Part shown: positions 26,866 to 49,577 of the stretch, one piece after another
How the letters are laid out: the number at the start of each line of letters is the position of its first letter
Position numbering within the stretch: position 1 is the stretch's first letter
DNA from: Elusimicrobiota bacterium
GTDB lineage: Bacteria > Elusimicrobiota > Elusimicrobia > F11
Assembly (NCBI GenBank): GCA_022072025.1
Contig: JAJVIP010000002.1
Span: 411,356 to 475,355, forward strand
DNA length: 64,000 nt
Direction of reading: 5' to 3'
Notes under the pieces: model-generated
The model's database searches: none
Told to the model about the DNA's origin: nothing
What the model saw: only the letters and a program-made list of their open reading frames with translations
Translations under genes and position numbers: made by a program

Positions 26866-27480
26866 ATGACCAATGTTGTAAGTCTAAACCACTTTCCCTC
26901 TGATATTTATTTTTCAAAAATCGTTCATTCGCATATTGAGGCCCTGCCGGATTCCAGTTTGAGTTTAATGGGGAAGAAAATGGTGGAGATATACTACCGC
27001 TCTGTTCTTGCCTCACCATATGAAACGTTATTTGTGGCTGGTGAACAATCGCTTGATGGAGTGGCTGTGTTATCTCTTCAACCCCATAACTTAATGAAAC
27101 GTCTGGTGGTTGATAATCTGGTTAATTTCAATTTTTATTCGTCAGCCCTTTCCTCCATTACTCCCCTTTTAAAAATTATTTCCAGTGCCCTGCATGAAAC
27201 GAAAGAACTTCCTGCGATTCATGACCTGCCGGAGGTGGTCCAGTTGTTCACCTTGAAGGAAAAGCAGGGCACAGGGGTTGGGACGAGTTTGCTCAATCAT
27301 GTCGAGGATTTCTTGAAGGAAAAGGGGATAGGTGGATATTTTGTGAAGACACTGACGGATCCAGCCAATCCGGCATTGACTTTCTATCGTAATCGCGGAT
27401 TTATTGTTGTTGGAAATTGTGTGATGAATGGGCAGAATTTTTCTTTTTGTACCAAGAGGCTGATGCCGCAAAAGCGATAA
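26866..27480 (+). CDS. GNAT-family N-acetyltransferase
   Basis: This is a roughly 204-aa protein with the GNAT acetyl-CoA signature in its C-terminal third (KQGTGVGTSLL, equivalent to Q/RxxGxG/A) and the last strand TFYRNRGFIVVG. The N-terminal part is less conserved. It may acetylate an amino sugar, perhaps a product of one of the two DegT aminotransferases. Two ATGs are possible, 26854 and 26866. The latter follows the GT2 stop and has GGGAG five bases upstream. The 3' end overlaps the opposing membrane-protein gene by 80 bp. Confidence 0.72.
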   Translation: MTNVVSLNHFPSDIYFSKIVHSHIEALPDSSLSLMGKKMVEIYYRSVLASPYETLFVAGEQSLDGVAVLSLQPHNLMKRLVVDNLVNFNFYSSALSSITPLLKIISSALHETKELPAIHDLPEVVQLFTLKEKQGTGVGTSLLNHVEDFLKEKGIGGYFVKTLTDPANPALTFYRNRGFIVVGNCVMNGQNFSFCTKRLMPQKR

Positions 27481-28723
27481 AGGGAATTAAAGGGATTCTG
27501 AATCTATAATAGCCTTGATGACTGGCGATGGCCAGAAGGATGCCAACTGAAAAAAACGCGATGAGCGCAAACCTTTTCATCCCCTCCAAAAATAGTCGAA
27601 TCACTCCTTTGATAAAGAAAAAATAAGAGGCGAGAAGAAAAAACATATACCCAACCTGAAAAGGAATGAGCAAAGGGAAATTTTTCAGTAGTTGAAAAGT
27701 CCCTTGGCCTGATAGTTTTTCATCCGCTTTTTGATTTTTGGAATCGGAGGGATCCCATCCAAAAAGTTCCAGGATCATTTCAACTCCCGTTCCGCCAAGA
27801 ATTCGCGCCGCTCCGGCCAAACAATACCGCATCGTAAAGATTGGATATTGGCGCATAATCTCTTTGGCTTCCTTTTCGTAGGCTTTCCCTTCTTGCAGGG
27901 AACCTTTAATTAAATTGGGGTTTTTCTCCTTTATTTGATCCGTTAATATTTGTGTGGCTGTTTTAATGTCAATTTTATGAGACATGGCGTAAGCATTGGC
28001 CGCTGGATAGAGGAGCAACGCATACCCGCCTTGTGTGGTGTAGACTGCCTGCCCCACATGACTTGAGTTGCGAATGGCCCAGGAAAGAGGAAGGGACATG
28101 GAAAACAGCAGAAAGAAGAGAGATTGTTTAATGTTCGATAGGTTGAAGATGAAAATAACAATCGGAATAAATAGTGCGATCGGTTTGGTCAAACCCGCTA
28201 GCGCCCAAAATACACCCGCTAGAATGAGGGCAAGCCGGGATTTATTGGCCATCCAAACGGATGTAGAAACAATACCAGCTGTCAGCAATAATTGAAGCCA
28301 TAATTCAGACAAAATAACAGGGGAGTGGAGAAGCGTGGTGAGATCCCAGACAAGAATGATGGCGCCAAGGGTGGCTCCTTTTTTTCCGCCGATTTTTTGC
28401 ATCAGAGGCCACCCAAGGAAAAGCAATATAACACCGATCAAACCTTGTACCGCAATGGCCTTCTGAAATTGGACGGGTTCTGTTGAATTGATCAACATCA
28501 GGAAAATTGGGTACCCCGGGAGTCTGAAGAGTTCGGGAGTGAAGGGGGGATTTTCATCGCTGGAAAAAACATGGTGGTTTTTCATGTTATTGGCCAAAGA
28601 AAAATATCCGTTTGAATCAGATCGGATTGAATAGGAGGGGTTGGAGGCCGCCCAAAAACCAATGGTTCCATAAAGCAGAACCGTGAGCGATATCAGCCAA
28701 AAAGGGGGAAGTTTATTTTTCAC
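27401..28723 (-). CDS. GT-C-type membrane glycosyltransferase (ArnT/GT39-like)
   Basis: This is a 440-aa polytopic membrane protein on the opposite strand. The first helix is at about residues 8-25. It is followed by a periplasmic loop with an Asp in RSDSNGY (D36), as in GT-C enzymes that use polyprenol-phosphate sugars, and by RLPGYPIF. About ten further hydrophobic segments follow, and a C-terminal YRFRIPLIPF motif resembles PMT/ArnT relatives. It probably transfers a sugar in the periplasm. It could alternatively be a Wzy-like polymerase, although the loop motifs argue against that. Its 3' end overlaps the acetyltransferase gene tail to tail. Confidence 0.7.
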   Translation of the reverse strand: MKNKLPPFWLISLTVLLYGTIGFWAASNPSYSIRSDSNGYFSLANNMKNHHVFSSDENPPFTPELFRLPGYPIFLMLINSTEPVQFQKAIAVQGLIGVILLFLGWPLMQKIGGKKGATLGAIILVWDLTTLLHSPVILSELWLQLLLTAGIVSTSVWMANKSRLALILAGVFWALAGLTKPIALFIPIVIFIFNLSNIKQSLFFLLFSMSLPLSWAIRNSSHVGQAVYTTQGGYALLLYPAANAYAMSHKIDIKTATQILTDQIKEKNPNLIKGSLQEGKAYEKEAKEIMRQYPIFTMRYCLAGAARILGGTGVEMILELFGWDPSDSKNQKADEKLSGQGTFQLLKNFPLLIPFQVGYMFFLLASYFFFIKGVIRLFLEGMKRFALIAFFSVGILLAIASHQGYYRFRIPLIPFIAFAASASWYKKKNSAHSSHNFQQQ

Positions 28724-28802: not shown

Positions 28803-30059
28803 ATGTTCGGAGCTCCACAACCTCGTTTTCGAATCTATACAAAGTTTTCAACTTATTTACGGCTCTTATTAGACGTAGGCCTATTGCGGTTTCACCGCGG
28901 CAATGCCATTGAGCGGTTGGAGTCGACGCTCTCACAAATCCTGAAAGTTAAACATGTGATTGTGACTCCCACTGCGCGAACAGGAATTTATCTTAGTTTA
29001 TCCTCCCTGATTAAACCAGGCCAGAAAGTGATCCTCTCTCCCATCACCATTGTGGATGTCATCAATATGGTGATCTGTGCTGGTGGTGTCCCCGTTTTTG
29101 CCGATGTCGAACCCAACACCTGCAATATTGACGCAAAAGAAATTGAGAAATTGATTGATTCACATACGGGCGCTGTATTCGTCACGCATTTGCATGGGCT
29201 GGCGTGTGATATTAAAAAGATTAGAGATATTTGCCGGGATCGCAATGTTCCTTTGGTTGAAGACGCCGCTCAGGCTTTCTCGACCACTGTGGAAGGTCAG
29301 TGGGTGGGGACTTTTGGCAAAGTAGGAATATTCAGTTTTGGAATGTATAAAGTGGTTAACGCTTTTTTGGGGGGAATGGTCGTCACAGATGATGATCAAT
29401 TGGGACGGGAAATCCGGGAAAAAATTAAATCCTTTCCTCCGCTACCACTCAAAATCTATTTAAAGAAAGTGTTGCACGCTGTCGTGACAGATATATCAAC
29501 AGCGGCTCCATTTTTTCCGATTTTTACTTATTGGTTGTTTCGATATGGCTTTTTGCACAATATTGATACGTTGAATGGATTCGTGACGGTGGATCGGGTT
29601 CCTGTAAGGAAAAACACGATTCCTCTGGAATATTTGGTGCGTATGTCTCAGACGCAAGCCCGTCTGATTCTTTCCCAATTGAAAGATGTGGAAAGGTACA
29701 ATCGTTCTCGGATAAAAAAGGCTTCTGCCTATCATGAAGGGCTTTCAAAAATCCCATCTTTAACCATTCCACCCAAACGAGTTGACGGCAGTCATATATA
29801 CACGTACTACGCCTTTAGGGCCCCTGATCGACACGCGCTCATGCGATATTTGTTGCAACACAACAGGGATTTGGTTCTCAGCCATTACCACAACACAGCT
29901 TCTCTTGAAATTTTTAAGGAATTTAAACGCTCCTGTCCCCACGCTGACTCAACCGCAAGAGAACTTCTCTACCTGCCCACCTATCCCCGGTACACAGAAA
30001 CCGAAGTCCAAGAAAATATTAAGAAAATCCAAGAGTATTTTTCTAATCACCAGATATGA
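28803..30059 (+). CDS. DegT/DnrJ/EryC1 aminotransferase, second type
   Basis: This is a 418-aa PLP-dependent enzyme, longer than the usual 370-390 aa. The VEDAAQAFS motif is at residues 152-160. The predicted PLP lysine is K183 in FSFGMYKVVNAFLGG, in the position of the normal SxxKN loop but with altered surroundings. The N-terminus lacks the usual PxxDL start and has a basic, partly hydrophobic lead-in. It is the first plus-strand gene after the opposing membrane protein. AAGGAA lies just before its ATG. It overlaps the GMC gene by ATGA and may share its substrate. Confidence 0.82.
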   Translation: MFGAPQPRFRIYTKFSTYLRLLLDVGLLRFHRGNAIERLESTLSQILKVKHVIVTPTARTGIYLSLSSLIKPGQKVILSPITIVDVINMVICAGGVPVFADVEPNTCNIDAKEIEKLIDSHTGAVFVTHLHGLACDIKKIRDICRDRNVPLVEDAAQAFSTTVEGQWVGTFGKVGIFSFGMYKVVNAFLGGMVVTDDDQLGREIREKIKSFPPLPLKIYLKKVLHAVVTDISTAAPFFPIFTYWLFRYGFLHNIDTLNGFVTVDRVPVRKNTIPLEYLVRMSQTQARLILSQLKDVERYNRSRIKKASAYHEGLSKIPSLTIPPKRVDGSHIYTYYAFRAPDRHALMRYLLQHNRDLVLSHYHNTASLEIFKEFKRSCPHADSTARELLYLPTYPRYTETEVQENIKKIQEYFSNHQI

Positions 30060-31627
30060 ACTTCGTTATTGGGTCTGGCCCGTCCGGTGTTTCTGCCGCG
30101 GCTGCATTGCTTAAACGTAACCTTCCTGTCACCATGATCGATGCCGGTTATGATTTGGAACCTGAGAAAAAAGAGAAGATCCGCCAAATGACGCATCGTC
30201 CCACAGAAGATTGGGACGAAGGTTTCATCTCTGATATGAAGAGTAAAAATAAGCCCGATGCTTCTGGGGTGCCCATAAAATTTGTCTTCGGCTCCGATTT
30301 TCATATCCGAGGAATCGATCGCCATATTTTGGTTTCATCGGAGGGCCCACGAAATTATTCTTCTTTGGCCAAGGGCGGGTTGAGTAATGTTTGGGGAGGG
30401 GCCATTCTTCCTTATTCCGATTCAGATTTATTGGAATGGCCATTAACCGCCCAAGAATTGGAGCCCTATTACAAAGAGGTTCAAAAGTTGATTCCTGTAG
30501 CGGGGTGTCATGATGATCTTGAAACTTTTTTTCCGCTTCATGATCAGGGGCTTCAGAATATCCCGCTCTCCAAGCAGGCAGAAACCTTTTTAGATGATTT
30601 AATGAAGAGCAGGGAGTATTTGAGAAAGACCCATCTGTATTTTGGAAAGGCACGATTGGCGGTTCAATTCAATAAAAGTGAAACAAAGAATGGTTGTGTA
30701 AAGTGTGGCCTTTGTCTTTATGGATGTCCCTATTCTCTCATTTACAATTCCACTGATACGGTAGATGAACTTAAAAAAAACGGAAATTTCACTTACCTCT
30801 CTGGGGTGATTGTTGAAAAGGTGTCAGAACGAGAAGGAAAAATTCTGATATCAGCTAGAGAATTGGATGGTCCGGGAGTGAAGGAATTTCATGGAGATAA
30901 GGTGTTTTTGGCCTGTGGTGTGTTGAACACGGCGAAAATTATTTTAACTTCTATAGGTGATTACGAGAGGGAATTCCTTGTCAAAACAAGTCAGCACTTT
31001 GTGTTGCCTTTCTTAAGATTCAAAGGAGTCCCCGAAATATTAAAAGAAAAACTGTTTACGCTTTCCCAGGTTTTTCTGGAACTTTTGGATCAAAATTCGC
31101 CTCGGGGGAATTGCCATCTTCAAATTTATTCATTCAACGACATGTTTTTAAAATTTTTAAGGGAGAAATTCGGTTTATTTTTCAAGTTGACCGAAAAATT
31201 CTTTGTGGATAAATTGCTTTCCAGATTGTTGATTTCCCAAGGTTATTTAAGTTCATACTATTCACCCGTATTGAGAGTCCGATTGGATCCCTCCACCGGG
31301 AAGATCTCTGTACATTCTTTAAAAAATCCCAAAACTTTAAAAAAACTTGGAGTTATCGTTTTCCGCATTTTAAAAAACACATGGGCAATGAAATCAATCC
31401 CCGTGATTCCCATGTTGCGGATTTCTCATGGAGGCATTGGCGCCCATATCGGTGGAATTTTTCCAATGAAGACTCATCCTGGAGAATACGAAACTGATTT
31501 GTTGGGCCGTTTGCCAAGATATAAATCGGTTCATATTGTGGACGCCAGCGTGTTTACTGATATTCCTCCTTCTACGGTGACATTGACGGCCATGGCCAAT
31601 GCTTATCGAATTGCCTCTGAGTCCTAA
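30056..31627 (+). CDS. GMC-family FAD oxidoreductase with a ferredoxin-like Cys motif
   Basis: This is a 523-aa flavoprotein. The dinucleotide-binding motif GSGPSG is at residues 6-11, the GMC flavin region SNVWGGA near 110-116, and the C-terminal GMC signature is ASVFTDIPPSTVTLTAMA. An insertion carries C214, C217, C220 and C224 followed by Pro, i.e. CxxCxxCxxxCP, the pattern of a [4Fe-4S] ferredoxin site. It probably oxidises a sugar alcohol or hydroxyl and may pass electrons through the cluster. The ATG overlaps the aminotransferase stop (ATGA). No signal peptide is seen. Confidence 0.82.
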   Translation: MNFVIGSGPSGVSAAAALLKRNLPVTMIDAGYDLEPEKKEKIRQMTHRPTEDWDEGFISDMKSKNKPDASGVPIKFVFGSDFHIRGIDRHILVSSEGPRNYSSLAKGGLSNVWGGAILPYSDSDLLEWPLTAQELEPYYKEVQKLIPVAGCHDDLETFFPLHDQGLQNIPLSKQAETFLDDLMKSREYLRKTHLYFGKARLAVQFNKSETKNGCVKCGLCLYGCPYSLIYNSTDTVDELKKNGNFTYLSGVIVEKVSEREGKILISARELDGPGVKEFHGDKVFLACGVLNTAKIILTSIGDYEREFLVKTSQHFVLPFLRFKGVPEILKEKLFTLSQVFLELLDQNSPRGNCHLQIYSFNDMFLKFLREKFGLFFKLTEKFFVDKLLSRLLISQGYLSSYYSPVLRVRLDPSTGKISVHSLKNPKTLKKLGVIVFRILKNTWAMKSIPVIPMLRISHGGIGAHIGGIFPMKTHPGEYETDLLGRLPRYKSVHIVDASVFTDIPPSTVTLTAMANAYRIASES

Positions 31628-31639
31628 AAGGATAATTCG

Positions 31640-32320
31640 TTGACTGTTTTGGCCATCGCCTTCGATTTGGATGATACCTTGGTTCATTCAGGCCTTGCCT
31701 ATCAAGTGGCGTTAAAAAGGATCGGATTAAAAGAGACAGATGCCGTGTATGTTCAGGCCAGAAACAACGTCAAGAAAAAATTGGGCGCGCGGCATGTGTG
31801 CGCTAGAAACCGGTTGCTTTACTTTAAAGAAATCCTCGATATAAGAAATCATTACACCCCTGATAGATTGCTGAAAATGATGGAGCATTATGAAAAGGCT
31901 CTTTCCATGGAAATTAAACGGCAATGGCTGGCCCTTAGGCGGGATGCGTTGATGAAAAGACTTTCACGTCGTATTCCGCTGGTGGTTTTATCCAATGAAA
32001 ACACGCGCACCCAGCTTATAAAAATGAAAGCGATCGACCCGCAGGCGTCCTATTTCAAAACGCTGATTACCTCCGAGAGTGTCGGCCATGAAAAACCCCA
32101 TGTGGCCATGTTTCAAAAGGCCAGCGAGGTGTTAAAAATTCCGTTCCAGCATATTCTCATGGTCGGGGATAATATGAAGGATGATATTCTCCCCGCACTC
32201 CGATTAAAAATGAAAGCGGTTTTGACCCGTGAGTTCTCCCAAGATTATTTATCTCATCACATGAAAAATAAAATTTCAATCCTTTCAAACTTAGACGATT
32301 TAGAGAGTTTTCTTAAATGA
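31640..32320 (+). CDS. HAD-superfamily hydrolase
   Basis: This is a 226-aa HAD phosphatase-type protein. The nucleophile motif is FDLDDT (D9, D11), motif II is VVLSNEN, motif III's Lys is in GHEKPHV, and motif IV is VGDNMKDD. A helical cap lies between motifs I and II. The start is TTG, 12 bp after the GMC stop. The stop overlaps the aldolase ATG (ATGA). It may dephosphorylate a sugar or polyol phosphate made in the same module. Confidence 0.85.
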   Translation: MTVLAIAFDLDDTLVHSGLAYQVALKRIGLKETDAVYVQARNNVKKKLGARHVCARNRLLYFKEILDIRNHYTPDRLLKMMEHYEKALSMEIKRQWLALRRDALMKRLSRRIPLVVLSNENTRTQLIKMKAIDPQASYFKTLITSESVGHEKPHVAMFQKASEVLKIPFQHILMVGDNMKDDILPALRLKMKAVLTREFSQDYLSHHMKNKISILSNLDDLESFLK

Positions 32321-33255
32321 AAGCCCTGGAAAATCTGGTCCATGTCACGCAGAGAATTGGCGGTCGCTCTCCGGGTTGGGTCCAAGGGGCTGGAGGTAAT
32401 TCTTCATTTAAATCAGGAAATGGAGTTTTGATCATTAAACCATCGGGGGCCCGCATGAGCGATATGCAGGATCTGGCCCATTTCGCAGAGGTGGATATTG
32501 AAAAATTCCTTGACCGATTGGGGCAGGCCAAAAAAAACATGGATGAAAGTTTATACGCCCATGCCCTTCAATCTTCGAATCTTTCTCATCAAAGGAATAT
32601 TCGTCCCTCCATGGAGACCGGCTTTCACGCCGTTTTGCCAAAACAATGGGTGCTTCATTTTCATTCTTTGGTTGCAATATTGATGGGATGGGAGCACTCG
32701 AAAAACCCTAAAAAAGTTGAACAGTGGCTCACCCGACATTGGGAGGAAGCCCATCAAATAATTGGACTCTGCTCACCGGGTCTTGAACTTACGTTTGAAG
32801 TCCAAAAACATAATTCCGCCACTTTATTTGTTCTGAAAAATCACGGAGTGATATTGCAGGGGAACGACGAGTCTTGTCTCGACCGATGGGAATCAATTGA
32901 AGATCGGTTTTGTGTTGATTGGAAATACGACAAGTTGAGTGAGGGGATGAAAAATATTAATTCCGAAGTCTTGTGGCGCGAAAAATGGGCGCTGAAAGCC
33001 ATTCCGATGAAATATTATTTTCCTGATATGGCCGTTTTCGCTCAAAAAATTGAGCCATTGCTTGAAAAACAAAAGGATCAGGAATTTCTTTTGAAAAAAG
33101 ACGCTTGGGTTACGAACCCTGGCCTTGGGGAAATTTGGCTGGCCACTCAAATTCTTTACTCAATCAATTCTCAACTTTCAGAATTGCCGGGTGATATGAT
33201 CAGTAAAATTCAGGGACTTCCCACCGAAAAACACCGGGTTTCAACACAGAAATGA
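32317..33255 (+). CDS. Class II aldolase/epimerase-like protein
   Basis: This is a 312-aa protein of the class II aldolase/adducin family, longer than FucA/RhaD owing to a C-terminal extension of about 90 residues. The phosphate-binding GAGGNSSF and KPSGARMSDM are at 25-50. Zinc ligands are H114 and H116 in LHFHS plus H176 in LKNHGVI. It likely performs retro-aldol or aldol chemistry on a phosphorylated sugar, or an epimerisation. The ATG overlaps the HAD stop and the TGA overlaps the nucleotidyltransferase ATG, so three enzymes are translationally linked. Confidence 0.83.
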   Translation: MKALENLVHVTQRIGGRSPGWVQGAGGNSSFKSGNGVLIIKPSGARMSDMQDLAHFAEVDIEKFLDRLGQAKKNMDESLYAHALQSSNLSHQRNIRPSMETGFHAVLPKQWVLHFHSLVAILMGWEHSKNPKKVEQWLTRHWEEAHQIIGLCSPGLELTFEVQKHNSATLFVLKNHGVILQGNDESCLDRWESIEDRFCVDWKYDKLSEGMKNINSEVLWREKWALKAIPMKYYFPDMAVFAQKIEPLLEKQKDQEFLLKKDAWVTNPGLGEIWLATQILYSINSQLSELPGDMISKIQGLPTEKHRVSTQK

Positions 33256-34808
33256 AGAAGGATGGCATCCATTTAATTATTCCCATGTCCGGCCAAGGTG
33301 TTCGATTTGTTCAGGGGGGATATTCCATGACAAAACCCTTGGTCCCTATTTCAGGACACCCCATGATTAAACGGGTCTTGAGTCAATTCCCCACAGAATG
33401 GCCGGCTGTTTTTGTTCTTTCCACAGAGCAAAAAAAATCAACGCTTCCAAAACTCCTTAAAGAATTGCGGCCTCAGGGGAAAATATTGTTTGTGCCACCT
33501 CATAAAAAGGGGCCAGGTTTCGCTTTGAAGAAAGGATTGGAGGCGGTGCCCCCTCATGCCCCGGTGCTGGTGAGCTATTGCGACTATGGAATGGTTTGGG
33601 ATTCCCAACAATTTCAGCGTTTCGTGTTTAACTCTCAATGCGATGGCTGTGTGCTTTCGTACCGCGGGTTTCATGCGCATCTGTTGAACCCAGCGGCCTA
33701 TGCCACTTCCCGAATGGTGGGAGAACAAGTCGTTCAAATCAAAGAAAAAGGATCATTCACGGACAACCGAGAAAATGAATACACGTCATGCGGAGCGTAT
33801 TATTTTAAATCGGCTGCAGATCTTAAGCGGTCGTTGAGGTATCAAATAAAGAAAGACCTCCTGTTGGGTGGCGAGTCCTATACCAGTTTGACGATGGAAG
33901 CTCTTCTACAGTGGAAAAAAAATGCGGATGTCCGGATATTTGAAATTGAAGCCTTTTTCCAGTGGGGAACTCCGGAAGATGTTTGGGATTTTGAATATTG
34001 GGAAAAAACATTTAAAAATTGGGTCAAGAATCAAATTGCTAAAAATCACGTGGCCCAAGTATTGATGCCGATGGCAGGTTTGGGGGCTCGGTTTTCCGCC
34101 GTCACTCATACGCCCAAACCTTTCATCCCACTCAACGGTAAACCTCTTTATGAGAATGCGCTGGATTCCCTTCCGGATGCGCTCGATTGTGTGGTGGTTA
34201 CCACCAATGAAATGAAAGAATTCATGACGTCCACGGCCTGTCGGGTTGTCTCTCTCCAAAAAACTCCTGCTGGCCAAGCTTTGACTGTCCAGGAGGGGGC
34301 GAACGCGCTGGATCCTTCTAAAGAAGTTGTTGTTTCCGCCTGTGATCACGCCATTGTTCTTTCTCCCAAGGTTTGGAAAACATTTCATGGAAATCCCCAA
34401 TGTGACGCCGCGATTTTTACGGTACAAGGATATCCTGGAACCCGCAGAACCCCTCACTCCTATTCTTATGTGGCGATTGAGAGTTCAAAAGAAAAATTCC
34501 CTCGTTTGAAATATGTGTCGCTTAAAAAACCAGTGTCGGACGCGCCAACGCGGGATCATTTGTTGTTGGGGACATTTTGGTTTAAAAGCGTCGATTTCAT
34601 GCGCGCCTCGATTCGCAGATTGATTGAGAAGGGACAACCTTTTAATGGTGAGTATTATCTCGATGCGGTGTTTGACCTCATCGAGCAAAGCGGTGGTCGC
34701 GTGAGAATTGTTCCTGTTGATGGGTTCATCTGTTGGGGGGACCCGCAAGCCATGAAGGAAGCGCGTTATTGGCAAGAAATATATTCCGGACACCATCTGC
34801 ATGATTGA
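33252..34808 (+). CDS. Tandem double NTP-transferase (two sugar-phosphate nucleotidyltransferase domains)
   Basis: This 518-aa protein contains two consecutive NTP-transferase domains of about 255 residues each. Domain 1 has GQGVRF (14-19), TKP with K28, and a metal Asp in YCDYGMVW (D111). Domain 2 has GLGARF (276-281), TPKP and a metal Asp in ACDHAIVL (D365). Both keep the GxGxRF...KP signature, so both could be active. A normal enzyme has one domain. The two halves may activate two different phosphates or form an internal pseudodimer. The ATG overlaps the aldolase stop and the 3' end overlaps GT2, which is the likely consumer of the product. Confidence 0.85.
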   Translation: MKKDGIHLIIPMSGQGVRFVQGGYSMTKPLVPISGHPMIKRVLSQFPTEWPAVFVLSTEQKKSTLPKLLKELRPQGKILFVPPHKKGPGFALKKGLEAVPPHAPVLVSYCDYGMVWDSQQFQRFVFNSQCDGCVLSYRGFHAHLLNPAAYATSRMVGEQVVQIKEKGSFTDNRENEYTSCGAYYFKSAADLKRSLRYQIKKDLLLGGESYTSLTMEALLQWKKNADVRIFEIEAFFQWGTPEDVWDFEYWEKTFKNWVKNQIAKNHVAQVLMPMAGLGARFSAVTHTPKPFIPLNGKPLYENALDSLPDALDCVVVTTNEMKEFMTSTACRVVSLQKTPAGQALTVQEGANALDPSKEVVVSACDHAIVLSPKVWKTFHGNPQCDAAIFTVQGYPGTRRTPHSYSYVAIESSKEKFPRLKYVSLKKPVSDAPTRDHLLLGTFWFKSVDFMRASIRRLIEKGQPFNGEYYLDAVFDLIEQSGGRVRIVPVDGFICWGDPQAMKEARYWQEIYSGHHLHD

Positions 34809-35529
34809 ATTTGAATTGGTTTTGCCGGCCTATAATGAGGCGCTTTCTCTTGAAAGAGTCATTCGTCGAACAGTCGCCGCTGCTCAAAGTTTTTCATTTT
34901 CACCTGACCGGTTTAAGCTGATCCTGGTTGACAATGGGAGTACCGATAATTCTCAGGAGGTTCTTGCCAAACTTCAAGAGTCCAATGTGGGGGAATGGTT
35001 TCGTGTGGTCACAGTGCAAAGGAATCAAGGTTACGGACATGGGCTGATGAGAGGGCTCGAGGCCACATGCGCTCCCCTTGTGGGGTGGTCGCATGCCGAT
35101 GAACAGTGCGATCCCAAGGACGCTTTTAATGCCTATGATTTCTTAACCAAAGCAGCCGATAATAAACTGTTAATAAAAGGCGAGCGGTTGGGGCGAGATA
35201 GAAAAGATGTATGGGTGAGCCGCGCCTTTGAATTTTTGGGGTATTTGATTTTGGGGCTCAAGACGAAAGAAGTGAACGCGCAACCCAAGGTTTTTCATCG
35301 GGAATTATTGAATTCATTAAAAAATCCTCCCCAGACCTTCGCTTTTGATTTGTATGTTCTGTTTCAGGCCCAAAAAAATGGTTTTTCTTATAAATCCATC
35401 CCTGTTCAATTTCCAAAGAGAAAGCATGGGCTTTCTCATTGGTCATCCACCTTTTTGGGTCGATATAAAACGATGATCGGCATGGTTCAATTTATGTTCA
35501 GATTGGCCCTTCAGGAGGGACGATTGTGA
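34801..35529 (+). CDS. Family 2 glycosyltransferase
   Basis: This is a 242-aa GT-A protein like polyprenol-phosphate mannosyl/glucosyltransferases. VLPAYNEA at the N-terminus is followed by VDNGSTDN (43-50) and a metal-site variant GWSHADEQ. It overlaps the double nucleotidyltransferase by 8 bp. It probably transfers the group activated by that enzyme to a polyprenol phosphate or glycan. A GT-C membrane enzyme two steps downstream could then use a polyprenol-linked donor. An inverted-repeat element follows the stop. Confidence 0.82.
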   Translation: MIEFELVLPAYNEALSLERVIRRTVAAAQSFSFSPDRFKLILVDNGSTDNSQEVLAKLQESNVGEWFRVVTVQRNQGYGHGLMRGLEATCAPLVGWSHADEQCDPKDAFNAYDFLTKAADNKLLIKGERLGRDRKDVWVSRAFEFLGYLILGLKTKEVNAQPKVFHRELLNSLKNPPQTFAFDLYVLFQAQKNGFSYKSIPVQFPKRKHGLSHWSSTFLGRYKTMIGMVQFMFRLALQEGRL

Positions 35530-35577
35530 AATGGAATCGTGGGATCTTGTTTTTTTACGAAGAAATGTTTGAAGTAC

Positions 35578-35752
35578 GCCGTCGCCCCGGCCCAGCATTT
35601 AAGTGGGGTGATTGTTGGCAAGTGTATAAGCCGGGGTCCAGTTGTTCCGGCAGAAGGTGTGATGTACACACCTCCTCCTCGGGAGAGGCTGGGTCCCGGC
35701 TTATGCTCTTCTTGGCGAACCCATCCTTTAAAAAATGGGCCGGGACGACGGC
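35578..35752. repeat. Nested inverted-repeat element (copy A)
   Basis: This is a 175-bp intergenic element. The outer arms (35578-35602 and 35728-35752) are near-perfect inverted complements beginning GCCGTCGCCCCGGCCCA on the left and GCCGTCGTCCCGGCCCA on the complement of the right. The inner arms (about 35626-35641 and 35688-35704) pair as ATAAGCCGGG..CCAG with two mismatches. The single strand could fold into a long cruciform or double hairpin. Open frames across it are by-products of the repeat. It shares the CGTCGCCCCGGC core and design with the element at 40322-40437. The whole gap 35530-35791 contains nothing else I can identify. Confidence 0.82.
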
Positions 35753-35791
35753 CATGCTTGATTCCTTGTTGGGTAGTGGCGGAACCGGGCT

Positions 35792-37810
35792 ATGAAAGAA
35801 ATTTTTAAATCTCGCGTGTTTTGGTTTGGTTTAACCTTGAAGGTGATTTGCATGCCCTTTTGGGGATCTGAATATATGCGGGAATTGTTTATCCCTTTCA
35901 TTGACAATGCTTTGATTCATCCTTTTTCAAATCCGTGGGCGCGATCCCTGCCACACTATTTTCCGTATGGATCGGCTGCCTTTATCGTTTTATTCATTCC
36001 AAAATTTATTGGTTACAAACTGCTTGGATCTTTGGCTATTGGGCAAAGTTCGCTAAGTCTCTTTCTCATGAAGTTTCCTTTGTTGATCGCTGATATCGTT
36101 TTTCTCCAAGCCTTGGTCAGGTTCAGCCCGAAAAGTATTCGTCTGCTTCTCTTATTTTATTGGCTAAATCCTGTTCTCTTTTTCATTAATTACATCCATG
36201 GTCAGTTGGACATCCTGTCCATCCTGTTTTGTTTTATGTCTGTTCAATTGCTCATTGAAAACAGGCACGTTTTTTCGGCAATCATGATGGCCCTGGCGAC
36301 GCTCAGCAAATTTCATGTGGTGATTGTTATTCCTTTGATGATGGCCTATGTATGGAACAATGAGTTTCTCAAACAAGCAATTCAGAAAATGGGAGGGTGG
36401 TTGATCGTTTGGTTGGGAATTTCCGTGTTGGGTTTTTTGCCGGTCCTTTTGGCGAAAACGGTGGGGTATGTGACGGTTGGATCCCCTCAGGCGATGCAAT
36501 TTTTTAGTTTAAGAACACCTGTTGGTGAAACAAACGTATTTTATTTTGGCGTGGCCTTGGTGGCGCTGACTCTCGGTCGTTTGGCGCTGAGCACCAAAAT
36601 ATCGGGGAGAGGACTTGTCTATTCGGTGGGATTGGTGTTTGGATTGTTGTTGTTTGTGGTTGATCCCGCGCCGGGTTGGTATTTTTGGGTTGTTCCGTTT
36701 TTGGCTTTGTACTATTCCACTTACTTTACAAACCAACCGATTTTGTTCGGGACTCTCCTGGGTCTGTATTTCCTGTATTTTTGCGTGATCAGCTCCTATG
36801 GATTGGGATTGTTCCCAACATTTTGGGGCGTTGGACTGACTCTTCTTCAAACAGCTCTTTTGGGGACCCTGGTTGATTTGTGGTCTGTCGTTCTTCGAAA
36901 CGAAATGCCTGTTTTGGGGCGCATGAAACCCATTCTCATTGGAGTATCGGGGGACTCCGGCGCCGGAAAGAACACTTTCAGTCTCCAGTTGGAAAAATTG
37001 TTTGGACCTTCCAATACCGTTCTCTTGGAGGGGGATGATTATCATCGATGGGTTCGCGGAACCGAAAAATGGAATTTCTATACTCATTTGAACCCCAAAG
37101 CCAATCAGTTGCCGGTTTTGGCTCACCACATGAAAGAATTAATTCGAGGGCGGTTTATTTTTCATCCCAAGTATGACCACCAAACGGGCGAATTTACATC
37201 TCCCCGTGAAATTCGCCCCAATAAAACCGTTATCATTCAAGGTCTTCATACCCTTTATTTGAAAAATATGCGGGAAAGTTTCGATTTAAAAGTTTTTATG
37301 TTTCCTGATGAATCCCTGCGTATGTATTGGAAAATCCAAAGAGATGTGAAAGAAAGGGGGCATACTCTGGAGTCTGTTCTTGAGGCGGAGAGGAAAAGGA
37401 AAGAGGACGCTAAAAACCATATTGATCCTCAGAAACAACACGCCGATTGGATCGTTGAAGTGTATCCACTTGAAGATTTATCGAAATTAGATCCAATGAC
37501 CCAGAAACCCGTTCCTCTGGGGGTTCGTCACACGTTATGGAACCACTCTCCTATCTTCGAGTTAAGTCAAGCCCTCAAGAATACGGGTTCTTGTACGGTA
37601 TCGATTGTTAATCAACCGGAGGATATTGATCGGTTGATTTTGGATGTTCAAGGAACCCTTTCTAGCGCCGAAATTGAACGGGTCGCGCGGCATCTTTTTC
37701 CCAATCTTCGCCAACTTACGCGGGGACGACGGGAACCGACATGGTTGGAAGGAATTCAGGGCATTAATCAATTGATCACACTTACTTTGTTGCAGAGTAT
37801 GCATCAATGA
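35792..37810 (+). CDS. Fusion of GT-C-like membrane domain and uridine-kinase-like domain
   Basis: This is a 672-aa fusion. Residues 1-370 are polytopic (about 9-10 hydrophobic segments) with YWLNPVLFFINYIHGQLD, a WxNPxxx...GQxD pattern seen in GT-C mannosyl/glucosyltransferases (ALG6/GPI-type). Residues 378-600 are a P-loop kinase of the uridine kinase/phosphoribulokinase family. Its Walker A is GDSGAGKNT (387-395), a GKNT variant with the Thr one place later, as in the GKGT of adenylate kinases. EGDDYHRW and QGLHTLYL follow. The membrane topology would keep the kinase cytosolic only if the helix number allows it. Substrates are unknown. The stop overlaps the next ATG (ATGA). Confidence 0.78.
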   Translation: MKEIFKSRVFWFGLTLKVICMPFWGSEYMRELFIPFIDNALIHPFSNPWARSLPHYFPYGSAAFIVLFIPKFIGYKLLGSLAIGQSSLSLFLMKFPLLIADIVFLQALVRFSPKSIRLLLLFYWLNPVLFFINYIHGQLDILSILFCFMSVQLLIENRHVFSAIMMALATLSKFHVVIVIPLMMAYVWNNEFLKQAIQKMGGWLIVWLGISVLGFLPVLLAKTVGYVTVGSPQAMQFFSLRTPVGETNVFYFGVALVALTLGRLALSTKISGRGLVYSVGLVFGLLLFVVDPAPGWYFWVVPFLALYYSTYFTNQPILFGTLLGLYFLYFCVISSYGLGLFPTFWGVGLTLLQTALLGTLVDLWSVVLRNEMPVLGRMKPILIGVSGDSGAGKNTFSLQLEKLFGPSNTVLLEGDDYHRWVRGTEKWNFYTHLNPKANQLPVLAHHMKELIRGRFIFHPKYDHQTGEFTSPREIRPNKTVIIQGLHTLYLKNMRESFDLKVFMFPDESLRMYWKIQRDVKERGHTLESVLEAERKRKEDAKNHIDPQKQHADWIVEVYPLEDLSKLDPMTQKPVPLGVRHTLWNHSPIFELSQALKNTGSCTVSIVNQPEDIDRLILDVQGTLSSAEIERVARHLFPNLRQLTRGRREPTWLEGIQGINQLITLTLLQSMHQ

Positions 37811-38409
37811 ACACGCTCATTAAACATCGCGTGAACACGCTTCGCGAATTGAAAATGGTGGATTCCAGATGGGGAGTTGAAATCGATTTAAGATCGGATG
37901 TGAAGAGAAAAGAACGGATTCATCTCAGCCACGACCCTTGGCGCCGCGGAGTTGATTTTGAAGTGTGGTTGAAGTCCTTCAAAAAAAAAGGAATTTCAGG
38001 ACCCCTGTTTCTCAACACAAAGGAAGATGGGTTGGAGACCAAAGTTGTTGCACTGATGAAAAAATATGGAATTGGTAACTATGTGTTTTTGGACACCCAG
38101 CTTCCGACACTTGTTAGATGGGCCATTAAAAAAAGAAATAAACATTTTGCCATTCGTTTGTCTCGGTATGAGGCGATTGAATCTTTGCGCCCATTTGTGG
38201 GGAAGGTTGCGTGGGTTTGGGTGGATTGTTTCGATGGCCAGCCGCTCTCCGCGCGTCTTGTGAAAAAAATCAGGAATAAGTTTAAGATTTGCCTGGTTTC
38301 ACCTGAACTTCAAATGAAATCAATTGTGTTGATTAAAAAATTTAGATCATTAAAACGATTGGCTCACGCCGTATGCACCAAATATCCCCGTCAGTGGGAG
38401 GATCTCTGA
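37807..38409 (+). CDS. GDPD-like protein of unknown function
   Basis: This is a 200-aa soluble, basic protein. The N-terminus shows a residue pattern of glycerophosphodiester phosphodiesterases: H7-R8, E25-x-D27 and H42-D43 (HR...ExD...HD). The rest is weakly similar and shorter than a full GDPD barrel of about 240 aa or more. It has no signal peptide. The ATG overlaps the kinase-fusion stop, and its own stop overlaps the start of the broken methyltransferase. A role in a phosphodiester-containing intermediate would suit the nucleotidyltransferase and kinase neighbours, but this is inference. Confidence 0.55.
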   Translation: MNTLIKHRVNTLRELKMVDSRWGVEIDLRSDVKRKERIHLSHDPWRRGVDFEVWLKSFKKKGISGPLFLNTKEDGLETKVVALMKKYGIGNYVFLDTQLPTLVRWAIKKRNKHFAIRLSRYEAIESLRPFVGKVAWVWVDCFDGQPLSARLVKKIRNKFKICLVSPELQMKSIVLIKKFRSLKRLAHAVCTKYPRQWEDL

Positions 38410-44545: not shown

Positions 44546-46522
44546 GTGAACTGGTCCCATCTTCTCCATCGATTGAATCACGTATCCAAGTCCGAATGGC
44601 CGCGTTTGTTGATGACGAAAACCGCTCATTGCTTAGATGCATGGATGGAACGAGCGCTTTATTCACCCAAGGGGCCGTATTTTCCCCATCAACCCGCAGA
44701 CTTGAAGCCCATTGGTCTTTACTCTTCCCATCTTCGAGATGATGCGCCTCGCCCGTTATTTCGATCCTCTTTTCCCAATGACGAAACCATTCGCTTGGCT
44801 GATCGAGCCTCAGAAGGTATTTTTGATTTGCTTGGATCGGGGCCGGTTGATTTAAAAAAATATGGAGATCAGATGTGGCATGTGGATTTTAAATCAGGGA
44901 CCTCCTGGCCTCCGCATGTTTTTTTCACGGGTGTTTCTCATTTGACTTTGATTCCAGGGGCCGACATAAAGGTCCCTTGGGAATTGTCTCGGTGCCAGCA
45001 TTTCGCGTGGTTGGCGCAGGCCCAGTGGCTTTCTCAGAATGATAGGTACGCCCGGGTGTTTGTGGACCAAGTCAATTCTTGGATTGAATCAAACCCACCC
45101 AAATATGGGGTGAATTGGCGAAGTTCCATGGAGGTCGCTCTTCGTGCGTGCAATTGGCTTTTGGCCTGGGATATTTTTCAAGACAACAAAATCATCGATG
45201 CTGAATTCCGCAAACGTTTTTCCGCCTCGCTCTGGGAACATGGCAACCATATCTATCGACATTTGGAATGGGGCGGAAATGTTTCAACCAATCATTATCT
45301 CTCTAACTTGTTGGGATTGGCCTATTTGGGGGTAGCGCTGGATCAGAAAAAATGGAAGATCTGCGCTCAAAATGAATTGGCACGAGAACTCTTTCGACAA
45401 ACGTATGACGACGGATTTGATTACGAAGGTTCAACCGCCTATCATCGTTTGGTTCTTGAAATATTTTTTTACTATTCATTGCTCGTCAAACGAAATCCCA
45501 TGGCCCTTGAACCGTTGGGGGCTGTCTTTTTGGAACGACTGGGGTTGATGTTTGAGGCCATGCTCCAACTAACCGCTCCTGATGGCACCATGCCCCTCCT
45601 GGGTGACAATGACAGTGGCCATGTTCACTGTCTTGTTAAACGTGAGGACGCGGATGTGTCTTATCTGACGGCATTGGGGGCCGCCTTGTTGGATCAAACT
45701 CCGCTGAAAGTAAAAGACTGGGAAGCCCCCGCTGAAATTTTTTGGCTCTTCGGCGAAAGTGGTTTGAAAAATATGAGGGCTGTTAAAACCGTTGCGGCCA
45801 AACAAATCCGCTCGAAAGGGCCCTCTTCTTCTGGACTCTTGACGATACGAGACCAAAATAGTTTGTTGGTTTTTTCAGCGGCTCCAAACGGGACAAGGGG
45901 AGTGGGGGGGCATACCCACAATGACAAGTTGAGTTTTTGTTTGTGGATTCAAGGCGAATGGTTTCTTTGGGATCCAGGAACAGGGGTCTATTCAGCCGAT
46001 CCTGATTTACGCAATCGCCTGAGGTCCACAGCGTCTCATAACACAGTGCAGATCAACGATGAAGAACAAAACCGCATCCTTCCCGCCTCTCTTTTTTCTC
46101 TCAAAGATGATGCCAAAACGAGTGTCCTCGCATGGGATCCGGAATGTGTCGAGGTTTCCCATGATGGATACAAACGATTACAACCTCCTGTGATTCATCA
46201 AAGACGCATCGAACATCGTCAGGGAAGTTTTCTCTGGAAGGTGGAGGACGTTCTTAACGGTGAGGGAGAGGTGGAAGCTCGTTGGTTTTTTCATTCTTCT
46301 CACCTGGATATTCAACCCATCGAACCTTTCAAGTATTATCTCAATGGCAAACATGGAAGACTTGAGATTCAATGCAATGCCATCTCCACCCCTGGCGAAA
46401 TAAAACAGGTCCCGATGTCTCCCGGCTATGGCGTCATTCAACGGGCTTGGGCTTTGGCCTTTCGTCAAAGGGTAACGCTGCCTTTTAAATGTAATTTTGT
46501 GATGACCTATGTCCCCCAATAG
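44546..46522 (+). CDS. Heparinase II/III-like polysaccharide lyase-family protein
   Basis: This is a 658-aa protein of the heparinase II/III/alginate-lyase family. The N-terminal alpha-toroid contains GGNVSTNHYLSNL and YEGSTAYHRLVLE. The C-terminal beta-sandwich has GVGGHTHNDKLS, GVYSADPDLRNRLR and TASHNTVQ, all family hallmarks. The start is GTG just after AsnB. There is no obvious signal peptide, which is common for biosynthetic-locus homologues. It may cleave the uronic-acid-containing polymer or act as an epimerase-type modifier. The 3' end overlaps the aroE start by 14 bp. Confidence 0.82.
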   Translation: MNWSHLLHRLNHVSKSEWPRLLMTKTAHCLDAWMERALYSPKGPYFPHQPADLKPIGLYSSHLRDDAPRPLFRSSFPNDETIRLADRASEGIFDLLGSGPVDLKKYGDQMWHVDFKSGTSWPPHVFFTGVSHLTLIPGADIKVPWELSRCQHFAWLAQAQWLSQNDRYARVFVDQVNSWIESNPPKYGVNWRSSMEVALRACNWLLAWDIFQDNKIIDAEFRKRFSASLWEHGNHIYRHLEWGGNVSTNHYLSNLLGLAYLGVALDQKKWKICAQNELARELFRQTYDDGFDYEGSTAYHRLVLEIFFYYSLLVKRNPMALEPLGAVFLERLGLMFEAMLQLTAPDGTMPLLGDNDSGHVHCLVKREDADVSYLTALGAALLDQTPLKVKDWEAPAEIFWLFGESGLKNMRAVKTVAAKQIRSKGPSSSGLLTIRDQNSLLVFSAAPNGTRGVGGHTHNDKLSFCLWIQGEWFLWDPGTGVYSADPDLRNRLRSTASHNTVQINDEEQNRILPASLFSLKDDAKTSVLAWDPECVEVSHDGYKRLQPPVIHQRRIEHRQGSFLWKVEDVLNGEGEVEARWFFHSSHLDIQPIEPFKYYLNGKHGRLEIQCNAISTPGEIKQVPMSPGYGVIQRAWALAFRQRVTLPFKCNFVMTYVPQ

Positions 46523-47402
46523 AATGCTAACAGGAATTATTGGCGCGAACCCCAGCCAGTATTCGAAAAGTCCTGTTATGTGGAATGCGGCCTTTCAGTT
46601 TTTTGATCTCGATGCCACCTATCAAGCCTTTGACGTATCAGAACACGATTTGCCATCGCTGATACAAACTTTCCGAAAGGATGAATCTTTGCGTGGTTTT
46701 AACGTGACCATTCCCTACAAAATAAAAATCATGGGTTATTTAGATGCGGTCGCACCCCTGGCTCAACAGGCGGGTGCCGTGAACACCGTTGTTCGAGATA
46801 CCAAGGGGCACCTAAGAGGATTCAATACGGACATCACTGGCGTGCTCGAAACGTTATGTGGCACATGGCAAGGCCAACCCCCTTTGTTTAAAAGTTTGGG
46901 AGGGCTTCGGGTCTTACTTTTAGGAGCAGGAGGGGCTTCTCGGGCGGTGATCGCTGCTTTGGGCAACGAATTAGGTGAAAAAGGCGAAATCCTGATTGTT
47001 AACCGTGATGTTGAAAAAGCCAAATCAGTGGCACTCGCTTTTCACGAATCCAAAACCCGCATTCGATGGGGCACCTTGTCCGAATTGGAAAATCAAATCC
47101 AAGGATTTGATTTGATTGTTAATGCCACGAGCGTTGGACAATTTGGTTTGGAATCCCCTTTGGGAGAAAGATCAATTCGGTTGGTGAATGCGAGCCAAGC
47201 CAATGCGGTATTTTTTGATTTGATCTATTCACCCTCAGAAACCTTGCTGCTCTCTCAAGCGAAATCGGCTGGTCGGAAAATAGTGAATGGCCAACCTATG
47301 ATTGTTGCTCAAGCGGTGGAAGCCTTTCGCTTAATGTTTGGGGATTTTCCTAAAAATGATCTCACCAAAATCATGGCGGAAGCTTTCGAGAAAAACATTT
47401 GA
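46509..47402 (+). CDS. aroE: Shikimate 5-dehydrogenase
   Basis: This NADPH-dependent reductase converts 3-dehydroshikimate to shikimate, 297 aa. The substrate motif is IGANPSQYSKSPVM (S19, S21), the catalytic Lys is K71 in VTIPYK, the Asp partner is D108 in FNTDITG, and the NADP-binding loop is LLGAGGASRA. The fit to AroE is good. It starts inside the heparinase gene (an alternative ATG is at 46524) and overlaps the next GT4. No other shikimate-pathway gene is in the window. It may be a housekeeping gene trapped in the operon, or recruited for an unusual carbasugar-like compound. Confidence 0.85.
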   Translation: MSPNRMLTGIIGANPSQYSKSPVMWNAAFQFFDLDATYQAFDVSEHDLPSLIQTFRKDESLRGFNVTIPYKIKIMGYLDAVAPLAQQAGAVNTVVRDTKGHLRGFNTDITGVLETLCGTWQGQPPLFKSLGGLRVLLLGAGGASRAVIAALGNELGEKGEILIVNRDVEKAKSVALAFHESKTRIRWGTLSELENQIQGFDLIVNATSVGQFGLESPLGERSIRLVNASQANAVFFDLIYSPSETLLLSQAKSAGRKIVNGQPMIVAQAVEAFRLMFGDFPKNDLTKIMAEAFEKNI

Positions 47403-48517
47403 AACCACGCAAAATCCTCTTTGTGGTTCCGCTGCCGCCCCCCTGGGCGGGTGTCGAACAAATGAGCCAGGTGCTCTTGGAATCATCCCTTGTAAAGCAA
47501 TATCAAGTTCAGGTGATTCGAGGAAACATTCGCGACTCCAATGCGGCCAAGGGGAAATGGGACTTGTCCGGAACATCTCGAGTTTTGAGCCTCTGTTTTC
47601 GTTTGACGATTAAATTGACCGTTTTCCGTCCTCACATTTTGTACATAACCCTTTCTCAAAACACCTCCGGGTTGGCCAGGGATTTTGCGTATATTCTTTT
47701 ATCATCATTGTTTGGGGTTCCGGTGGTGGCTCATCTCCATGGGTCCAAATTGAGAGAATTCATCGAGCTTCAGTCACCCGTTCCAAAGAAAATCGTTCTA
47801 TCGATGCTCAACCGGATCAAGTTGCTGGTTGTTTGCGCGAATTCTATAGGGGCTGACTTAAAAGAGGTTTTTCCACAATTGGAAATAGAGACTGTTTATA
47901 ACGCCATCCCCAAGATGAGGGAGGGGCCCTCAAAATTACCACGGTCGAAGGCTCGAAATGTAAGTTTTATGGGCCATTTCTCTGTCGCGAAAGGTTTTTA
48001 TGATGTCATTCGCGCCATTCCTCTTGTCTTATCGAAATTTCCCGATGTTCATTTTCATTTTGCCGGAGAACGATTGGACAATGAACGTAATATTCGTCTT
48101 TCTCAAAAAGGACGGTGGGAAGAGGTGGAGAAAACGATCAAAAGATTTCCTCAAAATATCCATTTTTGGGGAGTGGTGGAGGGGCCAGATAAAGAAAAAT
48201 TTTTTGAACAGGCCGATATTTTTATTTTGCCTTCTTATGCCGAGGCCTTTCCGGTGGCGGTGCTTGAAGCTTTGGGCGCTGGCCTTCCTGTGATCGCCAC
48301 GCCTGTGGGAGCTTTGCCAGAAGTATTAAAAGATGGGGATGATGTTCTTTTTGTGCAGCCGGGAAAACCGTCGGAAGTGGCCCATCGAATTATGGATTTG
48401 ATTGAGGACTCTAAACTCAGAGAACGTTTGTCACAAAATGCGTTGGCATTATCCCAGAAATTCTATCCCGATGTCTTTGCGCAATCCATGGCTCGGGTAT
48501 TTGAAAAAAGTCTGTAA
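47399..48517 (+). CDS. Family 4 glycosyltransferase
   Basis: This is a 372-aa GT-B retaining glycosyltransferase. VVPLPPPWAGVEQMS gives the N-terminal glycine/acceptor loop, and the second domain has GHFSVAKGFYDVI and the EX7E motif in PSYAEAFPVAVLEAL. The start is TTG overlapping the aroE stop (TTGA). It is followed by a 56-bp gap and then the KdsD-like gene. The donor is not identifiable. Confidence 0.85.
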   Translation: MKPRKILFVVPLPPPWAGVEQMSQVLLESSLVKQYQVQVIRGNIRDSNAAKGKWDLSGTSRVLSLCFRLTIKLTVFRPHILYITLSQNTSGLARDFAYILLSSLFGVPVVAHLHGSKLREFIELQSPVPKKIVLSMLNRIKLLVVCANSIGADLKEVFPQLEIETVYNAIPKMREGPSKLPRSKARNVSFMGHFSVAKGFYDVIRAIPLVLSKFPDVHFHFAGERLDNERNIRLSQKGRWEEVEKTIKRFPQNIHFWGVVEGPDKEKFFEQADIFILPSYAEAFPVAVLEALGAGLPVIATPVGALPEVLKDGDDVLFVQPGKPSEVAHRIMDLIEDSKLRERLSQNALALSQKFYPDVFAQSMARVFEKSL

Positions 48518-48573
48518 AAAGAAAGTGGCCCATCATCGGTGGAATTCTTACAATCAAACATCCAATCAAAGTT

Positions 48574-49563
48574 ATGAACATTGAAAACGAAATTAAATCA
48601 GTGATATCAACCCAGGCCAAAAGTCTCGCTGAATCCAAGCGGGCTATTGGCGGGGCCTTTAAAGAGGCTGTGAACATTCTTTACCGTTGTAAAGGAAAAG
48701 TGATCGTAACGGGTATCGGGAAATCGGGTTTGATCGCTCAAAAAATGGCTTCTACTCTTTCTTCCACTGGGACTCCCGCTATTTTTATGCATCCCGTGGA
48801 AGGCATGCATGGGAATTTGGGATTGGTACAGAAAAGCGATGTAATTTTTGCGATTGGGAAATCGGGAGAAAGCGAAGAATTGATCAACATCCTTCCGGCG
48901 CTTCATAAGATTGGAGCCAAGGTGATCTGTTTAACAGCTGAAAAAAACTCCACCTTGGCCAGGCGCTCCTCAGTTGCATTGTACGTTCCGGTTAAAAGGG
49001 AGGCCTGTCCCTTGAATTTGGCGCCGACGACCAGTTCAACTGTGGCGTTGGTGGTGGGGGACGCCATCGCTATCACGCTGATGAAGATGCGGGGGTTCAA
49101 TGAGCAAAACTTTGCTCTTTATCATCCAGGGGGACTTCTGGGGCGCCGGCTTCTCTTGAAAATGGAAGACGTAATGCGCGGAGGGGAACTCAACCCCGTT
49201 GTGAAGGTGAGTGATTCTATGACGAACTTGCTCATCGAGATGTCGAGAAAGTGGACGGGAGCGGTTTCAGTTGTGAATGCCAAGAAAAAACTTGTGGGAC
49301 TGGTGACCGATTTCGATGTTCGCCGGGCCTTTGCTCAAGGAAAAGCTATTCGGCAAGTAAAGATAGAACAAATTATGAATCCCCATCCCATTTTCATTTA
49401 TTCCGATGAAATGGCTGTGCGGGCGCTTGAAATTATGGAATCTCGGAAAAAGCCTTTGACAGTTCTCCCAGTGGTCGATCGCAAACGAAGATCGGTGGGC
49501 ATGGTCCATTTGCATGACCTGGTGCGCAAAGGACTTGTTTCGGGAAAAGCGCCTCACCTCTAA
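48574..49563 (+). CDS. kdsD: Arabinose-5-phosphate isomerase (KpsF/GutQ/KdsD family)
   Basis: This enzyme converts ribulose 5-phosphate to arabinose 5-phosphate, the first precursor of KDO, 329 aa. The SIS domain shows GIGKSGLIAQKMAST, AIGKSGESEEL, ALVVGDAI and FALYHPGGLLGRRL, the hallmark of the family. Two CBS domains follow (about residues 205-325), with MEDVMRGG at the first. Their nucleotide-sensing role is typical. KdsA, KdsB and WaaA are not in the window. It is 14 bp upstream of pdxA. Confidence 0.9.
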   Translation: MNIENEIKSVISTQAKSLAESKRAIGGAFKEAVNILYRCKGKVIVTGIGKSGLIAQKMASTLSSTGTPAIFMHPVEGMHGNLGLVQKSDVIFAIGKSGESEELINILPALHKIGAKVICLTAEKNSTLARRSSVALYVPVKREACPLNLAPTTSSTVALVVGDAIAITLMKMRGFNEQNFALYHPGGLLGRRLLLKMEDVMRGGELNPVVKVSDSMTNLLIEMSRKWTGAVSVVNAKKKLVGLVTDFDVRRAFAQGKAIRQVKIEQIMNPHPIFIYSDEMAVRALEIMESRKKPLTVLPVVDRKRRSVGMVHLHDLVRKGLVSGKAPHL

Positions 49564-49577
49564 AGATAAATCCGCTT

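Follow-up and report, generated by a model that had tools for sequence, protein, structure and literature searches.

The gtr (gtrA-gtrB-gtrC) operons of O-antigen modification combine a family 2 glycosyltransferase (GT2) that makes an undecaprenyl-phosphate sugar, the GtrA flippase and a polytopic periplasmic transferase with a variable, acceptor-specific membrane protein, and they form mobile stand-alone units. In the non-carboxylating pentose bisphosphate pathway of haloarchaea, a HAD-type ribulose-1,5-bisphosphate (RuBP) phosphatase and a FucA-type ribulose 1-phosphate (Ru1P) aldolase, encoded in one operon, convert RuBP to Ru1P and then to dihydroxyacetone phosphate (DHAP) and glycolaldehyde (PMC9700705). 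The bisphosphate-type pathway to nucleoside diphosphate (NDP)-heptoses phosphorylates a sugar, removes its other phosphate and activates the product, using a kinase, a HAD phosphatase and a nucleotidyltransferase. The present work concerns a group of six genes which resembles each of these systems in part, and which lies at positions 31640-38409 of a 64,000-nucleotide stretch (“the window”) of an Elusimicrobiota genome. We consider it about an even chance that these genes, as a self-contained cassette, both make and transfer an unusual sugar, which would most likely be a five-carbon ketose (a pentulose).

The cassette shares with the gtr operons the GT2, the flippase and the polytopic transferase, the variable membrane protein and the mobile, stand-alone character, but it brings its own sugar-nucleotide pathway, its membrane glycosyltransferase of the GT-C fold is fused to a phosphoribulokinase (PRK)-type kinase, and the window copy lacks GtrA. 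As in haloarchaea, a related HAD and a class II aldolase stand side by side and would act after RuBP; here, however, RuBP would come from the PRK-type kinase and not from ribose-1,5-bisphosphate isomerase, and the pair is tied to nucleotidyltransferases and glycosyltransferases, so that its role is presumably biosynthetic. The NDP-heptose pathway follows the same logic, but the cassette uses another kinase family, an additional aldolase and phosphodiesterase, and two nucleotidyltransferases. No description of the whole gene set was found in the open literature searched. The transfer part belongs to a known type (gtr), and the supply enzymes are relatives of those in a known salvage route of archaea. 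What appears to be new is the way the parts are combined, the fusion of GT-C to PRK and the product that is predicted.

A conserved six-gene cassette

The initial annotation of this DNA had read eight consecutive genes as one process, and all eight open reading frames (ORFs) lie in the window where it had placed them. Pfam cut-offs are passed by the DegT aminotransferase, the HAD, the class II aldolase, both MobA/IspD-like halves of the double nucleotidyltransferase, the GT2 and the PRK domain. Six of the eight make up the cassette:

31640..32320, + strand: HAD-IA phosphatase, 226 aa, TTG start, homologue of archaeal RuBP 5-phosphatase (PF00702/PF13419)
32317..33255, + strand: class II aldolase with RhaD-like N-terminal domain, 312 aa (PF00596)
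33252..34808, + strand: double nucleotidyltransferase, 518 aa (PF12804/PF01128)
34801..35529, + strand: GT2, 242 aa, likely a GtrB/DPM1-type undecaprenyl-phosphate glycosyl (pentulose) synthase (PF00535)
35792..37810, + strand: GT-C membrane glycosyltransferase (residues ~1-370) fused to a PRK-type kinase (~380-640), 672 aa (PF00485)
37807..38409, + strand: GDPD/PI-PLC-like phosphodiesterase, 200 aa (assigned by family alignment; PF03009 in homologues)

The two fusion proteins, of 518 and 672 aa, recur together elsewhere, as had been anticipated: in tblastn searches against plasmids both matched the same three records, namely an Escherichia coli IncR plasmid, Azospirillum brasilense p5 and Hirschia baltica pHbal01. 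Each record encodes a class II aldolase, a double nucleotidyltransferase, GtrA, GT2, a GDPD/PI-PLC-like protein, a GT-C/kinase and a HAD, and neither DegT nor GMC genes occur in these three annotated cassettes. With an alignment of the nucleotidyltransferase as query, 170 relatives were found among GTDB species genomes, and 85 loci, which include the window and the best 80 of these relatives, were inspected using profile hidden Markov models for the six families. All six genes are found together in 68 of the 85; 47 loci share one gene order and 15 a second, permuted order. Several of the 17 incomplete loci are cut at contig ends and others are without a GT2 or GDPD homologue, and the HAD is part of the cassette in 75 of the 85. 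The HAD, the aldolase, the double nucleotidyltransferase, the GT2, the GT-C/kinase and the GDPD-like protein are a conserved cassette. The idea of a single process thus survives the neighbourhood search for these six genes, with the GDPD-like protein as a full member, and fails for the aminotransferase and the GMC-like enzyme.

Over a hundred bacteria of very diverse kinds share the cassette, as do some phages. Carriers include Proteobacteria, Acidobacteria, Nitrospira, Prochlorococcus and plasmids, and in the closest cassette from the same class as the window (L063) the genes for HAD, aldolase, nucleotidyltransferase and GT-C/kinase are arranged as they are in the window. Two of 5,426 E. coli genomes carry the cassette (blastn), both on small plasmids (NZ_CP145712.1, typed IncR, L060 6022-14984; and NZ_JCAPUP010000005.1); at blastn sensitivity no copy was found on the chromosomes of these 5,426 genomes, which could include strains with xylulose O-antigens. 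The presence of the whole cassette on small plasmids suggests a mobile surface-glycan modification. Stand-alone cassette islands also occur in Yersinia proxima (L089 10001-18948), adjoining apparent hut genes, and in Pseudomonas quercus (L103 10250-18913), adjoining a ribosomal protein S1-like gene, and in both the cassette is followed by a gene for a large membrane protein that falls into no Pfam family. The commonest further neighbour is GtrA, which is present at 42 loci and recurs between the nucleotidyltransferase and the GT2. Another large polytopic membrane protein, of varying sequence, lies near 60 of 67 complete cassettes, and one of ten such proteins scanned is a GT87.

Viral relatives separate the cassette into parts. 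Viral contigs gave no match to the window's double nucleotidyltransferase alone and did match the nucleotidyltransferase alignment. One of them (L150) encodes six unfused enzymes, namely a GDPD, an aldolase, a PRK, a HAD and two nucleotidyltransferases that are distinct proteins, and has no GT2, GtrA or GT-C; these six enzymes are therefore assigned to the making of a precursor and GT2, GtrA and GT-C to its transfer. The cyanophages Synechococcus phage S-SM2 (L153 7001-10306) and phage Bellamy (L156 6001-9303) encode a double nucleotidyltransferase that shares ~40% identity with its counterpart in the cassette of the E. coli plasmid, and a gene for a small class II aldolase lies nearby.

Enzyme families of the cassette

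The kinase domain, which had been labelled uridine-kinase-like, is on sequence and model evidence of the phosphoribulokinase type, and this changed the substrate prediction. It aligns with the PRK of S. elongatus and with other phosphoribulokinases across the catalytic region, and PRKs are the top Foldseek matches of the GT-C/kinase model (predicted local distance difference test score, pLDDT, 85); a plain uridine kinase was accordingly rejected. D415, H418, R422, R517, D518 and R522, which we take by comparison with the R. sphaeroides enzyme to be catalytic or ribulose 5-phosphate (Ru5P)-binding positions, are conserved in 72 homologues. (Structure-linked alignments were built from rows of other than plasmid origin.) A Calvin-cycle role was rejected because no RuBisCO (PF00016) was found in the window's genome. 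Pfam gives no match to the GT-C half in the window protein itself, but the homologues of this half match ALG3 and GT87 and the N-terminal region of the model is helical, which is what would be expected of a polytopic periplasmic glycosyltransferase.

The best-scoring NCBIfam model for the HAD, among the four members scored, is ribulose-1,5-bisphosphate 5-phosphatase (NF053830), at 8e-20 for the window protein and 4e-56 for the best homologue. All 33 aldolases compared match RhaD/PRK08324 models, and 13 of the 33 match the ribulose-1-phosphate aldolase model NF053831. Residues E100, H114, H116 and H176 are invariant in the 33 proteins; the His triad corresponds to Zn-type ligands, and E100 is presumably the catalytic residue of FucA/RhaD-type aldolases.

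Both halves of the double nucleotidyltransferase retain the G-x-G-x-R-F, K-P and C-D motifs, and in a tree of halves they fall into two separate, supported clades. The model (pLDDT 92) matches NDP-sugar pyrophosphorylases and inositol-1-phosphate CTP transferase in Foldseek. No Pfam family is matched by the window's own GDPD-like protein (200 aa), but PF03009 exceeds its cut-off in two homologues (from L009 and L010), the family profile finds the solved GDPD structure 3no3 (E 3.5e-7), and H7 R8, E25, D27, H42 and K72, which form the HR/E-x-D/H/K active-site set, are invariant in eight proteins. The GT2 passes PF00535 and matches the ArnC model NF007986 at 2.7e-12, and is likely, on sequence, to be a GtrB-like undecaprenyl-phosphate glycosyl synthase. 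The earlier proposal of a nucleotide-activated unit which is not a hexose is supported.

A predicted pentulose pathway and its alternatives

The substrate, the order of the steps, the cyclic intermediate and the product set out here are predicted from the gene families, conserved residues, co-occurrence and modular splitting observed. In the supply stage, the PRK-type kinase would phosphorylate a pentulose 5-phosphate (Ru5P to RuBP), the HAD would take off the 5-phosphate of RuBP to give Ru1P, and the RhaD-like aldolase may rebuild or epimerise this ketose 1-phosphate; one candidate product is L-xylulose 1-phosphate, which the stereochemistry of RhaD gives with glycolaldehyde. Since C1 of a ketose is not the anomeric carbon, a glycosyl donor needs its phosphate at C2. 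Enzymes of the GDPD/PI-PLC-like superfamily work through cyclic phosphates; one nucleotidyltransferase half could thus make an NDP-1-pentulose, which the phosphodiesterase would cleave by attack of the C2 hydroxyl to a 1,2-cyclic phosphate and then to a 2-phosphate, and the other half would turn this anomeric 2-phosphate into an NDP-ketofuranose. Such a new route to NDP-ketofuranoses, in which two nucleotidyltransferases and a phosphodiesterase shift the phosphate off C1 and onto C2, the anomeric carbon, at a cost of one nucleoside triphosphate, is a speculative proposal that we regard as rather improbable. For transfer, the GT2 would load the pentulose onto undecaprenyl phosphate, a flippase of the GtrA type (which relatives encode and which was not found in the window's genome) would turn the undecaprenyl-linked sugar over, and the GT-C domain would add it to a periplasmic glycan as a side branch, as in gtr O-antigen modification.

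The O-antigen of Yersinia enterocolitica O:10 bears L-xylulofuranose side branches, and its gene cluster lists no gene for xylulose activation (PMC11380512). Taken with the Yersinia proxima island, this offers a suggestive link between the cassette and xylulose. If the pentulose reading is right, it would supply genes for ketopentose residues in O-antigens such as that of O:10, a use of the phosphoribulokinase fold outside the Calvin cycle and a new way of making NDP-ketoses; if the phosphate migration also occurs, xylulofuranose-type side branches, to which no biosynthetic genes were found to be assigned, could originate from this cassette. The enzyme set is fixed in several phyla as well as on plasmids and in phages, and no product of it was found described in the literature searched; from this we predict an activated sugar that is as yet uncharacterised and that is added to surface glycans. 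The cassette also accounts for the joint appearance, in glycan loci, of genes annotated as phosphoribulokinase, aldolase and phosphodiesterase.

Several observations weigh against the pentulose reading. The window HAD scores 71.4 bits against an equivalog cut-off of 330 bits for NF053830, and is best described from its sequence as a relative of RuBP 5-phosphatase rather than an established equivalog; the aldolase scores 25.7 bits against 567.75 for the RhaD-ADH equivalog, which is a bifunctional model. Because both lie under their equivalog cut-offs, their specificities may differ. GtrA (PF04138) was not found anywhere in the window's genome, the link to O:10 is an analogy only, and in E. coli the cassette occurs in the two plasmid-borne cases among 5,426 genomes. 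Two same-class genomes have no cassette kinase or aldolase, one with the nucleotidyltransferase, GT2 and GDPD (G105) and the other with the nucleotidyltransferase alone (G069), and these three genes are therefore separable from the rest. Finally, mini-clusters made of one or two related nucleotidyltransferases, a GDPD and a different HAD, often with a cupin and often including WavE-type glycosyltransferases, occur in surface-glycan loci and cyanophages; their carriers are four same-class genomes, Rhizobium and P. aeruginosa plasmids and a cyanophage (loci include L009 6027-9249; L010 9239-12586; L011 7666-10020; L012 8847-10957; L157 4998-8148). They share related nucleotidyltransferases, a GDPD and a HAD with the cassette, but they have no PRK or RhaD-like aldolase, their HAD is another one and their nucleotidyltransferases form a clade of their own; the same tree rules out a nucleotidyltransferase duplication common to both. 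They are possibly a related route to another ketose.

The equivalog scores also leave room for a different sugar handled by the same logic. The specificities of kinase, phosphatase and aldolase would then be shifted, for instance to hexulose or heptulose bisphosphates or to an aldose (ribofuranose is one example), and the double nucleotidyltransferase would act on an ordinary anomeric phosphate. Class II aldolases accept a range of aldehydes (PMC9700705), and Foldseek sets the nucleotidyltransferase among sugar-1-phosphate enzymes; the PRK-type residues in 72 proteins and the RuBP-phosphatase match, however, indicate pentulose phosphates, and another sugar would not by itself explain two nucleotidyltransferases and a phosphodiesterase, so that we hold this alternative to be possible though doubtful. 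The recurrent pairing of GDPD and nucleotidyltransferase, together with the ability of IspD/IPCT-fold enzymes to make cytidine diphosphate (CDP)-polyols, would suit a phosphodiester-linked, CDP-alditol-like unit whose phosphodiester the GDPD-like protein makes or trims. The initial annotation had named such a linkage as possible, but it is unlikely, because the GT2, GtrA and GT-C are glycosyl-transfer parts that indicate an undecaprenyl-phosphate glycosyl donor, and the cassette contains neither an alditol dehydrogenase nor a phosphotransferase. A phosphonate route, which the initial annotation had judged unlikely, was rejected: the cluster has no phosphoenolpyruvate mutase, and a PF13714 match is on another contig.

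The kinase, HAD and aldolase could also be a salvage trio that converts Ru5P to DHAP and glycolaldehyde and hitch-hikes with glycan genes, just as haloarchaea use the same two enzymes, HAD and aldolase, to salvage RuBP (PMC9700705). For the cassette such a role is very improbable, given that the PRK is fused to a glycosyltransferase, that the trio is fixed beside nucleotidyltransferases and GT2 across phyla, and that it accompanies nucleotidyltransferases in phage. An eight-gene amino-sugar pathway that includes the DegT aminotransferase and the GMC-like enzyme, both of which had been counted as module members, would account for their adjacency and 4-bp overlap in the window; yet a GMC homologue lies near none of the 84 related loci and a DegT near only eight, all distant, L063 has neither, and same-class GMC homologues sit in other loci, several adjoining an SDR, without the cassette. 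DegT and the GMC-like enzyme are adjacent genes and not members of the cassette, the amino-sugar reading is for that reason unsupported, and we give it scarcely any credence.

Gene junctions, neighbouring genes and a dispersed repeat

The features around and between the cassette genes are the following:

28803-30059, + strand: DegT aminotransferase, non-cassette neighbour
30056-31627, + strand: GMC-like FAD enzyme carrying a Cys motif of the ferredoxin type, non-cassette neighbour
35560..35780, no strand: dispersed ~220-bp repeat outside the pathway, assigned from its genome copies

The GMC assignment is weak (19.7 bits, under the Pfam cut-off); the Cys motif of the protein is C-x2-C-x2-C-x3-C-P. 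The ATGA overlaps that had been said to join most of the eight genes are present as 4-bp overlaps at four junctions (DegT/GMC, HAD/aldolase, aldolase/nucleotidyltransferase and GT-C-PRK/GDPD), but the nucleotidyltransferase and GT2 genes overlap by 8 bp, and gaps of 12 bp and 262 bp separate GMC from HAD and GT2 from the GT-C fusion. The 262-bp gap is occupied by the partly self-complementary repeat, of which the genome holds ~24 long copies at 87-95% identity and further partial copies, and which looks like a miniature inverted-repeat transposable element (MITE) or a repetitive extragenic palindromic (REP)-like element. A GtrA hidden in this gap was ruled out, since the gap contains no such ORF.

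Directly upstream of the DegT gene, on the − strand (27401-28723), lies a gene for a 440-aa protein with a GT-C-like look and no trusted Pfam match, which from its sequence could be a variable acceptor-specific transferase. Farther along the same surface-glycan region, positions 46509-50570 of the window hold shikimate-dehydrogenase-like, GT4, KdsD-like SIS-CBS and PdxA-like genes.

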